In this document: one piece after another, positions 419-55,865 of the stretch | How the letters are laid out: every line of letters starts with the position of its first letter | How positions within the stretch are numbered: position 1 is the first letter of the stretch | Program-made: the position numbers and the translations under genes | Source: Hydrogenobacter hydrogenophilus | GTDB taxonomy: Bacteria > Aquificota > Aquificia > Aquificales > Aquificaceae | Length of the DNA stretch: 64,000 bases | Reading direction: 5' to 3' | Assembly: GCF_900215655.1 (NCBI RefSeq) | Contig: NZ_OBEN01000001.1 | Span: 372,001-436,000, forward strand | Notes under the pieces: generated by a model | The model's database searches: none | What the model was told of the DNA's origin: nothing | Seen by the model: the letters and a program-made list of their open reading frames with translations, nothing else

Positions 419-1444
419 TTAAAAGAGTAAAAGCTCAAGTAGGTCTTCTACATGAACGCCTGGCATGTCTGCCTTCTTTAAAAACTCTTCTATCTTATAT
501 CTTACTTGGTCTAAACTTGCACCCTTTAACTCTTTCTCAAGATCCTTGATGGCATTTTTCGGCACAAGAGTGAAATCTCCGTATATGCTAACATCTTCTA
601 TTATATTTTCTTTGATGTAAACTTCTGCTTTTATTAATCCGCCTTTCACTTTCTTAACTGCATTTTTTACATAAACTCCCTCTCTTATCTTTAAAAATTT
701 GTGCTTTCTGCCCGTATCTTCAAAAAGAACATTTTCTGAGGTTAGATGTTGCATCAGCTCATCCGCAAGGTGCAAAACTTGGTTGTTTATTTCTCCTTCG
801 CCTTCAAATTCTATAAGCTTGGAAAACTCTTCTACCAGTATGTTTTCCACCTCTTGGTAGGAAAAGCTTTTATGTGTTTCCTTTTCCACCCATGTGATAT
901 TTTCTTCAAGACTCTTATAAAGTTTATCTCTGAATTTTTCCTCCTGAACTTTGAAAAGTTCTGACATAAGTTTGGTATTAAACTGCAAAAGAACATTCCC
1001 TACAAAAACAAAGCTATCACCTATATCGGCTGCACCCTGACCGCTTATTTTTTTACCGCTTTTGACTACAAGGTCGTTTATGGGTCTGTAGAATACCTCT
1101 ACTCCAAGCCTTCTGTAGGTTTCTATAACTGGCTTAGAGAATTTTCTGTAAGCGTCCTCTACTTTAAAAGGTGCCTGTTTTTTGGGAAGTATAAGCTGAT
1201 AAAAAACCTGCCCTTGGGATAGCAGGACCGCTCCACCTCCCACTTCTCGCCTAATGATGGGTATGTTCAAGCTTTTGCACCTTTCGTAGTCTATTATATC
1301 CTCTGTCTTATCAAAGTACCCAACGCTCACATATGTGTCCGCCGGTTCTGTGATAACAAGACCTCTGTATCCAAGGCGTGCCATAGCGTGAAAAAGAGTT
1401 ATGGATCTTAGATTTCCCTGCTTACCCAGTCTGTATATTTTCAT
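419..1444 (-). CDS. lplA: lipoate-protein ligase A family protein
   Basis: 341 residues, the usual length of a two-domain LplA. The biotin/lipoate ligase catalytic domain shows RREVGGGAVLL near residues 65-75 (lipoyl-AMP binding loop) and NDLVVKSGKKISGQG near 123-137, where the second lysine of GKKIS matches the catalytic lysine of Escherichia coli LplA. The last ~90 residues (from about 255) resemble the lipoate ligase accessory domain. It would activate lipoate with ATP and load it on lipoyl domains (GcvH, E2 subunits or sulfur-oxidation LbpA). It overlaps the upstream dehydratase gene by 4 bp, so the two are cotranslated. A second, fused lipoate ligase lies at 53682. Substrate preference cannot be read from the sequence. 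Confidence 0.9.
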   Translation of the reverse strand: MKIYRLGKQGNLRSITLFHAMARLGYRGLVITEPADTYVSVGYFDKTEDIIDYERCKSLNIPIIRREVGGGAVLLSQGQVFYQLILPKKQAPFKVEDAYRKFSKPVIETYRRLGVEVFYRPINDLVVKSGKKISGQGAADIGDSFVFVGNVLLQFNTKLMSELFKVQEEKFRDKLYKSLEENITWVEKETHKSFSYQEVENILVEEFSKLIEFEGEGEINNQVLHLADELMQHLTSENVLFEDTGRKHKFLKIREGVYVKNAVKKVKGGLIKAEVYIKENIIEDVSIYGDFTLVPKNAIKDLEKELKGASLDQVRYKIEEFLKKADMPGVHVEDLLELLLF

Positions 1445-53681: not shown

Positions 53682-55865
53682 ATGTGGAGAGTTGTATATA
53701 CAGGACAAAGGCCCCACTACGAAAATATAGCCCTTGACAGGGTTATGCTTGATCTAAAGGCTGAGGGGAAAATACCTAACACTATAAGGTTTTTGCAATT
53801 CAAACCCGAGTGCGTCCTTGTAGGTTTCCATCAGTCAGTAGAGGAGGAGGTAAGGACAGAGTATACCCAAAGAGAGGGTATACAGGTTGGAAGGAGAATA
53901 ACAGGAGGAGGAGCCATATACTTTGATGAGCTTCAGATAGGTTGGGAAGTTATAGCGGACAGAAGGGACATAAAAGGGGGTAGCTTTGAGGAGATCACAG
54001 CAAAAATATGCAATGGTGTGGCAAGGGGACTCAGAAAGCTGGGAATAAACGCAAGCTTCAGACCCAGGAACGACATAGAAGTAGAAGGTAGAAAGATATC
54101 AGGAACGGGTGGTGTTTTTGAAGGAAGTGCCTTCCTTTATCAGGGGACACTGCTTGTGGACATGAATGTAGAGAGAATGCTTAAATCTCTTCAAATACCT
54201 GTTGAAAAGCTAACATCCAAAGGCATAAAATCAGCAGAGGACAGGATAGAGTGGGTCAAGCGCCTTTTGGGATACATTCCCCCAAAGGAGGAAGTCTTTT
54301 CTGCTATACTGCAAGGTCTTGCTGAGGAGCTGGGAATCACTTACAGCTGGGGGGATCTTACAGATGAGGAGCTAAAGCTCATGGAGGAAAAAAGGGATTA
54401 CTTTGCCAGCGAAGAGTGGATATACCATGTGAAGTCCTCTGCAAAGGACAGTGATGTGCTCTTTGGTATACACAGATGTCCGGGTGGTACTTTTAGGGTA
54501 TCCGTAAAGTTAGATACAAAGACTAAGGTATTAGAGCAAGTCATCATAAACGGAGACTTTTTCGTAAAACCTCAGAGACTCATCTACGACCTTGAAGCTT
54601 ATCTGAAACACACGCCACTGCAAGATGTGGAGAAAAGGATAAGAGAGTTTTTTGAAGGAAGGGATTGGGAAGCTTTGAACCTAACTGTGGATGATTTTAT
54701 AAATGCTGTAATGTTTCCCATTAGGAAAGCAGAAGGCTTGGATTTAGGTCTTGAAAAAAAAAGGCTCAATAACATAATAGCCAGTATAGGTGGTGGGCTA
54801 AAAGAAAATCTGCAAAAAGCTAAGGTCATGCTCCTTCCTTACTGTGCTAAGCCCAGATGGTGCGATTATAGACACCTTGATGATTGTGGAGAGTGTGGGG
54901 GATGCAGTGTAGGAGATGCTTACAGGTTAGCTTATCAGAAGGGTATGATACCCATAACTATAACATCCTTTGAGCTTCTAAGAGACACTCTTTTGTGGTG
55001 TGCACAAAACGGCTACACATACATAGGCCATTGCTGTTATGAGTTTTACGAAAAGAGGTACGAGATATTTTCCAAGGCTTCTGAGCAAGGTGCTAATGGT
55101 GTTCTCTTTGACATAGTAGGTACTACTTGCTACAGCTTGGGTGTAGAAGAAGAAGAAAAGGCTTATCACGGAGAATTTACCGTTGAACTGGATTTGATAA
55201 AGGAAGATATGTACAGGGTAATGTCCCTAAAGCCAGATGTGGATACTCAGACCCAAAAGGTAAAAAGAAGAAACTTTGACTTTTCTCCAAACTTTGTGGA
55301 TTTCAAGCCTTCTTATTACAAGAAACCTAAGGCGGTGCCTACACCTGAAGAGGACATGACAAGAACCTCCATGCAAAAGGAAGTATTCAAAGGTGAAGCC
55401 ACCATCGGTGATCAGTCTGTGTCTTTTAGGTCTGCGGTGGAATTGCTCGTCAAGTGGATAAAGTCTGCAGAAAACCCCACTGTGGTGATAGGTCCTCTGC
55501 TCTTTTGGGATTGGCAGGAAGAAGAACTACTACAGAAAGGCAGAGTGCTAAGAGAGATCATAGAGAAGGTGGGAAGGTTTAATGTGAAAGTGCTCCCAGA
55601 TTACAGACCCAAGCTTAAAAAGTACGACCCTTCAGTAGAAATGGATCCGCCTAATCCTCATCACGCAATACTTCACGGAAAGCACGACCTTACCATATTG
55701 GTAGGAGTTCATTGCTACAGAACTGACTTTGTAATAAGGCTCCTAAAAAAGCACACTGATACAAAGGTAGTTGCCCTATGCGGTCTTTATGGACATCCAT
55801 CCGCGGACCTCTCCACAAGCTTTACAGATGCACAAAAGCTTGAAGAGATCCTCAAGCTACTTTAA
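53682..55865 (+). CDS. lipoate ligase / DUF116 / CODH-epsilon-like three-domain fusion
   Basis: 727 residues from the ATG at 53682 (AGGAGG 8 nt upstream; a Met 9 codons earlier would sit before the ribosome site). Residues ~1-240: LplA catalytic domain with RRITGGGAIYFD (71-82) and GRKISGTGG with catalytic-type K138. Residues ~240-330: ligase accessory domain. Residues ~350-510: DUF116-type domain rich in Cys (LLPYCAKPRWCDY, CGECGGC at 402-408, GHCCYEF, GTTCYS), able to hold a metal cluster. Residues ~585-727: a Rossmann-like domain resembling the CO dehydrogenase epsilon/beta-family (NPTVVIGPLLFWDW, ILVGVHCYRTDFVIR). Role in specialised lipoate metabolism is inferred. Confidence 0.8.
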   Translation: MWRVVYTGQRPHYENIALDRVMLDLKAEGKIPNTIRFLQFKPECVLVGFHQSVEEEVRTEYTQREGIQVGRRITGGGAIYFDELQIGWEVIADRRDIKGGSFEEITAKICNGVARGLRKLGINASFRPRNDIEVEGRKISGTGGVFEGSAFLYQGTLLVDMNVERMLKSLQIPVEKLTSKGIKSAEDRIEWVKRLLGYIPPKEEVFSAILQGLAEELGITYSWGDLTDEELKLMEEKRDYFASEEWIYHVKSSAKDSDVLFGIHRCPGGTFRVSVKLDTKTKVLEQVIINGDFFVKPQRLIYDLEAYLKHTPLQDVEKRIREFFEGRDWEALNLTVDDFINAVMFPIRKAEGLDLGLEKKRLNNIIASIGGGLKENLQKAKVMLLPYCAKPRWCDYRHLDDCGECGGCSVGDAYRLAYQKGMIPITITSFELLRDTLLWCAQNGYTYIGHCCYEFYEKRYEIFSKASEQGANGVLFDIVGTTCYSLGVEEEEKAYHGEFTVELDLIKEDMYRVMSLKPDVDTQTQKVKRRNFDFSPNFVDFKPSYYKKPKAVPTPEEDMTRTSMQKEVFKGEATIGDQSVSFRSAVELLVKWIKSAENPTVVIGPLLFWDWQEEELLQKGRVLREIIEKVGRFNVKVLPDYRPKLKKYDPSVEMDPPNPHHAILHGKHDLTILVGVHCYRTDFVIRLLKKHTDTKVVALCGLYGHPSADLSTSFTDAQKLEEILKLL

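Follow-up and report, generated by a model that had tools for sequence, protein, structure and literature searches.

A conserved run of nine adenines between the lipoate ligase and DUF116 domains of an Aquificaceae gene, a candidate slippage site for two products

A single open reading frame of Hydrogenobacter hydrogenophilus, located in the 64,000-nucleotide stretch of DNA analysed here (the window; contig NZ_OBEN01000001.1, positions 372,001 to 436,000), joins a lipoate:protein ligase to a cysteine-rich DUF116 domain and to a domain resembling a CO dehydrogenase (CODH) subunit. Ligation of lipoate requires neither of the added parts, which raises the question of why they are attached to the ligase and whether one protein or two are made from the gene. 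A previous sequence-only reading of the locus suggested a redox- or metal-gated lipoylation enzyme, or a bifunctional one that builds or modifies lipoate. The explanation that we consider probable as a whole is a two-product gene, in which slippage on a run of nine A's (A9) would separate a plain ligase from a longer protein carrying a docking module and a redox or sulfur module.

The frame is open over its whole length and its start, MWRV, is kept among homologues. The three-domain architecture was confirmed by Pfam and NCBIfam profiles and by its wide occurrence in the family, and residues 350-510 matched DUF116 and residues 569-724 matched CO_dh, as the sequence-only reading had predicted in outline (the features are collected in Table 1). 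The ligase part carries the catalytic motifs RRITGGGAIYFD, PRNDIEV and KISGTGG, and thus combines an LplA/B catalytic domain having RRxTGGG and KISG with an LplB domain, the combination expected of an Lpl(AB); the match to NF053749 (48 bits) is below the 65-bit cut-off, yet it is full-length. When the full-length protein was modelled with AlphaFold2 (mean pLDDT 79.7), this part matched solved lipoate ligases.

Table 1. Features of the locus, in window coordinates.
Feature	Position	Strand	Basis or remark
Whole gene, Lpl(AB)-DUF116-CO_dh	53682..55865	+	727 aa in genomic frame
Lpl catalytic domain, residues 12-213	53715..54320	+	PF21948 (LplA-B_cat), E=6e-44; motif alignment; PDB ligases
LplB accessory domain, residues 265-341	54474..54704	+	NF053749 (NCBIfam LplB), E=8e-13; PF10437 (Lip_prot_lig_C)
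A9 run, proposed slippage site	54754..54762	+	only A/T run of at least 9 in the window
DUF116 domain, residues 362-507, nine Cys	54765..55202	+	most conserved part of the protein
TAA stop reached if one A were added in RNA (or by a -1 ribosomal shift)	54770..54772	+	sequence after A9
TAA stop of the third frame (RNA with A8 or A11)	54775..54777	+	sequence after A9
CO_dh/PORdelta-like domain, residues 569-724	55386..55853	+	PF02552, E=9e-36; paralogues in the same genome adjoin PFOR/OGOR genes
Second, unfused Lpl(AB) paralogue	419..1444	-	26% identical, motifs intact

The DUF116 assignment is borderline by score: the Pfam match (PF01976) covers residues 377-427 with E=6.5e-5, and reaches 22.9 bits with the whole protein and 25.3 bits in the genome search against a curated cut-off of 25. 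The free-standing homologue of g7 scores 36.5 bits against the same profile. The cysteine cluster that had been pointed out, CGECGGC, is indeed present at residues 402-408, and together with the further cysteines makes up a conserved CxxCxxC-containing set at positions 388, 394, 402, 405, 408, 440, 451, 452 and 483. All nine are invariant in 28 homologues, and eight are still invariant when g7 is added. In the homologue alignment 64% of the residues of the DUF116 part are invariant, and the least conserved parts are the linker before CO_dh and CO_dh itself. Both the CxxCxxC with further cysteines and a predicted alpha/beta domain are common to DUF116/COG1852 proteins (archaeal arCOG02078, PMC5898192), from which the domain described here differs in having no N-terminal TM helices, in being fused to a lipoate ligase and in its borderline Pfam score. 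The cysteine-bearing stretch 388-407 was modelled with low confidence by AlphaFold2; a Foldseek search with the DUF116 model gave no matches at E below 0.001, and no solved relative turned up when the PDB was searched by HMM with this domain.

The CODH-like nature of the C-terminal domain held at the level of the family, with PF02552 scoring 123.6 bits against a curated cut-off of 21 bits, but not at the level of CdhB, the epsilon subunit of CODH/ACS, as the protein reaches only 17.7 of the 101.2 bits required by the equivalog TIGR00315; PF02552 is what the two have in common. In the same genome, CO_dh paralogues adjoin the genes of pyruvate and 2-oxoglutarate:ferredoxin oxidoreductases (PFOR and OGOR) and correspond to the PORdelta/FORdelta subunits. 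These are known from the five-subunit enzymes of A. aeolicus as proteins similar to the CODH/ACS epsilon subunit, with a role that is unknown (PMC10052474). The domain is closer in kind to PORdelta/FORdelta, having PF02552 and 31-33% identity with the pair encoded by the same genome, than to CODH proper. Unlike PORdelta/FORdelta, which are separate subunits encoded with the PFOR/OGOR genes, it is the C-terminal domain of an unlinked gene.

The distribution of the gene was assessed in 136 Aquificota genomes. It was present, whole or in parts, in 55 of the 64 genomes of the window's family, Aquificaceae. Nine genomes lack it: the four of genus g10, without exception, and five with completeness below 90%. 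A scan of contigs in a genome collection gave 38 loci, all of the Aquificaceae type and practically all from contigs named Aquificaceae or Aquificota. Since the architecture recurs in these 38 contigs and 55 genomes, it is not a product of chance. In family f2 and beyond the gene was not found in the 136 genomes, where only CO_dh paralogues occurred; PORdelta proteins have been stated to be exclusive to Aquificaceae (PMC10052474), and PORdelta-like CO_dh proteins occur in family f2 genomes as well. One contig carrying an Aquificaceae-type gene, L024, is labelled Acidobacteria bacterium J001; the genome search places it in the window's family, and the name of the record seems to be wrong. Within the phylum, DUF116 was found solely in this gene. 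As g7 has A9 and DUF116 without the CO_dh part, DUF116 is the core of the addition, with CO_dh either added later or lost in g7. No conserved neighbours were found around the gene in 19 genomes, and the genomic context therefore gives no indication of function. In a Thermocrinis MAG the gene is broken (L032:7992-9990): its ligase part contains a further A9, and the DUF116 cysteine cluster has been deleted.

The junction between ligase and DUF116 is marked by the A9 run. Its length is exactly nine in 42 of 44 distinct sequences, a scoring that excluded g4/Hydrogenobaculum, with A10 and A8 found once each; further A9 junctions in L010, L025 and the g7 sequence L082 bring the total to 45 of 47 sequences of the family. 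The run is read in several codon phases (GAA AAA AAA AGx, AAA AAA AAA Gxx and GAT AAA AAA AAA CTx), and so keeps its length although it encodes different residues from case to case. Stops follow in both other frames within about 3-11 codons of A9 in the family sequences; in the window, use of the stop at 54770-54772 would give a predicted 363-aa Lpl(AB) ending in EKKKAQ. An end in EKKGSIT is the predicted alternative for the short product, which would have a mass of about 41 kDa, compared with about 80 kDa for the fusion.

Codon choice at the junction departs from that in the rest of the gene. Pairs of lysines at the junction are written AAAAAA in 61 of 63 cases, compared with 50 of 239 elsewhere in the gene, and the lysine codons of the remainder of the gene are AAA in 34%. 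When synonymous codons were resampled, the per-genome probability of an A9 was 0.036 (geometric mean), a value not to be multiplied blindly over genomes that are related. A count over 716 kb of Aquificaceae DNA gave 2815, 869, 199 and 47 runs of 5, 6, 7 and 8 A or T, respectively. Runs of at least nine numbered 36: the junction accounted for 34, L032 had one at another place in this gene, and one was intergenic. Genome-wide, A9 is rare without being confined to the junction: the window's own genome contains 12 A9/T9 runs. A few of the others lie inside longer ORFs and are possible further slippage sites.

In eight genomes the ligase and DUF116 are in different frames and form two overlapping reading frames. 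The fused or split state changed 7 times on a tree of 45 rows, and at least six of the changes are forced by well-supported branches. Every split genome needs the same correction, one A added or a -1 shift. A9 is retained in g7 and in six of the seven splits outside g7, and those six lost either a base next to the run or a single A from an A10; a split with A8 was seen once, in L033. Two sister taxa with separate assemblies, L035 and L039, share their split (clade support 99/97). In six of the eight split genomes no start codon precedes Met383, and the 18 codons between A9 and Met383 are conserved, most of their differences falling at third positions. Provided that the splits are genuine, these codons can be translated only by frameshifting, since they are conserved and in those six genomes have no upstream start.

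The plainest account of these data would be a constitutive three-domain enzyme, with A9 as a lysine-rich linker and the splits as assembly errors. In its favour, every split genome is a draft MAG, the gene is in frame wherever the genome is a single contig, indels are a common error in homopolymers, and two to three lysines are conserved at the junction. However, the junction lysines are AAA in nearly all cases, compared with 34% in the remainder of the gene, and runs of nine are almost absent elsewhere. A deletion error in A9 should leave A8, and six of the seven splits outside g7 have A9; to obtain them by error a true A10 would be needed, which was seen once among the in-frame genomes. Together with the split common to the clade of L035 and L039 and the natural split with A9 in g7, this makes assembly error unlikely as the cause of the splits, and we regard the constitutive enzyme as very doubtful. 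Phase variation, in which replication slippage on the run would toggle the fusion between cells, also has a homopolymer inside a coding gene and frame states differing between related genomes to build on. It was rejected as highly improbable, because the run is mostly nine in both states, so that the switch is not in its length; a housekeeping cofactor gene would also be an unusual target.

The main rival to slippage at the level of RNA is -1 ribosomal frameshifting, which could yield two products in the manner of E. coli dnaX. The A9 run contains an in-phase A_AAA_AAA/G heptamer, with A_AAA_AAA as the site on which the ribosome would shift, and the -1 shift would also restore every split genome. 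On the other hand, seven A's would be enough for the heptamer and the length is fixed at nine, the usual threshold for transcriptional slippage (PMC1088944). No stable RNA structure was found in the 60 bases after A9 (mean z 0.03, 45 sequences), and tRNA-Lys UUU and CUU are both present; T. thermophilus is alike in both respects, and the presence of the two tRNA-Lys species is a condition tied by the review PMC5009743 to slippage rather than to ribosomal shifting. For these reasons, and as in T. thermophilus, RNA-level slippage is favoured and judged likely from the sequences, while ribosomal shifting appears unlikely. Whichever step is responsible, the conclusion that the gene makes two products, Lpl(AB) alone and the fusion, is the one we would predict with most confidence, as very likely.

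The proposed mechanism follows dnaX of Thermus thermophilus, where RNA polymerase slips on nine A's and tau and gamma result in roughly equal quantity, about 50% of the product being the short form (PMC1088944). There, too, stops follow A9 in both other frames (PMC1088944; PMC5009743). The gene described here resembles dnaX in a conserved run of at least nine A's within coding sequence, at a product boundary, with close stops in both other frames, and in its occurrence in a thermophile with two tRNA-Lys species. It differs in gene and function, and in that the run is conserved across a family in which the genomic frame switches between lineages; slippage here is a prediction from sequence. As on dnaX, RNA polymerase would slip on A9 where the ligase meets DUF116; transcripts that keep nine A's would be read through to Lpl(AB)-DUF116-CO_dh, and those with other numbers (not 9 + 3n) would end within a few codons to give stand-alone Lpl(AB). 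In the out-of-frame genomes the roles would be reversed, the templated mRNA giving Lpl(AB) and one added A giving the fusion.

What the long product might do is suggested by Hydrogenobaculum, which has no A9 at the junction. RRxTGGG, PRNDI and KISGTGG have all been lost from its fused ligase, whose identity to that of the window is 29-31%, compared with 94% for DUF116 and 70% for CO_dh. Beside an L002-type gene, Hydrogenobaculum also has an unfused Lpl(AB) in which every motif is intact and which is 43-47% identical to the fused ligases as against 26% to the other paralogue. Read most simply, gene duplication would have replaced slippage in this genus, providing a free ligase and a fusion. As the fused ligase lost its motifs while an intact separate ligase exists, the fusion probably does not need ligase catalysis and its task is likely to be other than ligation. 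The fused ligase retains these motifs in most genera, where the fusion may be an active ligase as well.

The same observations bear on a redox- or metal-gated ligase, in which DUF116 and CO_dh would regulate or power the ligase in cis. The intact motifs of most genera and the predicted metal binding of DUF116 (PMC5898192) agree with it, but Hydrogenobaculum has kept DUF116 nearly unchanged next to a ligase without motifs, and g7 does without the CO_dh part; we find such gating doubtful. Of the gated or bifunctional enzyme originally proposed, the connection with lipoate assembly remains plausible, whereas the view of a single product is opposed by A9, by the split frames and by Hydrogenobaculum.

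Which pathway the gene serves was approached through its co-occurrence with lipoyl carriers. The window's own genome encodes LipA and five GcvH-like proteins, of which one is GcvH, encoded next to gcvPA, and two are LbpA from the sHdr operon, besides two others. The sHdr operon contains LipS1 and LipS2 beside the two LbpA and no ligase gene, which makes the gene a candidate for the missing sLpl(AB). It shares the catalytic and LplB domains, the motifs and the co-occurrence with LipS1 with Lpl(AB)/LplA ligases, including sLpl(AB) of the sHdr-LbpA-LipS1/S2 pathway (PMC10332631, PMC6067878), and differs from them by the DUF116 and CO_dh extension and by its place outside the sHdr operon. The anticipated co-occurrence was found with lipoyl carriers and LipS1. 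Neither the gene nor LipS1 is found in g10 or family f2, and g10 keeps the sHdr subunit HdrB2; the gene thus goes with the LipS1/S2 route and not with sHdr as such, so that the suggested link with lipoate assembly or sHdr/LbpA is still plausible but sHdr itself, being present in g10 without the gene, is a less specific partner than LipS1. The LipS1 correlation amounts to one or two evolutionary events and serves as a lead only, and for the link of the gene to LipS1/S2 the case is evenly balanced.

Two further observations concern the same group of proteins. Orthologues of the second ligase of the window (419-1444) are full Lpl(AB) in g1, g2, g3, g10 and g11; in g4, g6, g8 and g9 about 260-285 residues are matched, apparently without LplB, a reduction from ligase to a LipM-like form within one family. 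On contig C3 of the window's own genome, L103:9823-10347 (minus strand) encodes a GcvH/LbpA-like protein with an N-terminal leader of the MISRRDVLKVFLSLS type, flanked by a 2-hydroxyacyl-CoA-dehydratase/activase-like pair on one side and a formate-dehydrogenase-like operon on the other; it is possibly an exported lipoyl carrier.

On the two-product reading, the short product would be a lipoate/octanoate:protein ligase of the ordinary kind, which probably works in the LipS1/S2 route that yields lipoyl-LbpA for sHdr sulfur oxidation. The main task of Lpl(AB) within the long product would be docking on the carrier protein; both this docking and RNA-level slippage in vivo are what we infer from the sequences. 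The DUF116 part, with its eight or nine conserved cysteines, is probably an Fe-S module, which together with the PORdelta-like domain might act on the carrier-bound lipoyl or octanoyl group or supply it with electrons or sulfur. Such a redox or sulfur role of the fusion on the carrier is proposed tentatively. With somewhat less than even confidence, the family-wide slippage A9 and the ligase fold as docking module for DUF116 and PORdelta can be suggested to make up a new component of the LipS1/S2 or sHdr system.

No earlier account of two-product recoding at this gene was found in the literature searched. No paper pairing DUF116 with lipoate was found in the literature on DUF116, lipoate was not mentioned in the top-ranked papers on slippage and frameshifting, and the gene was not mentioned in Antonov 2013, Baranov 2005 or the searched part of Atkins 2016.

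An A9 run fixed throughout the family while the genomic frame flips would, if true, be an unusually clear evolutionary demonstration of transcriptional slippage. The classic cellular case is dnaX of T. thermophilus, and to our knowledge few bacterial genes have conserved, functional slippage of this kind. If the reading is true, annotation pipelines misjudge the gene in both its states, as a frameshifted pseudogene in the split genomes and as a plain fusion in the others. The prediction can be tested with existing cultures of H. thermophilus, A. aeolicus and Thermocrinis. DUF116, a family of unknown function, gains a biochemical context that is open to testing, and the gene points to an unknown partner of the lipoyl-carrier proteins in these hydrogen- and sulfur-oxidising autotrophs.
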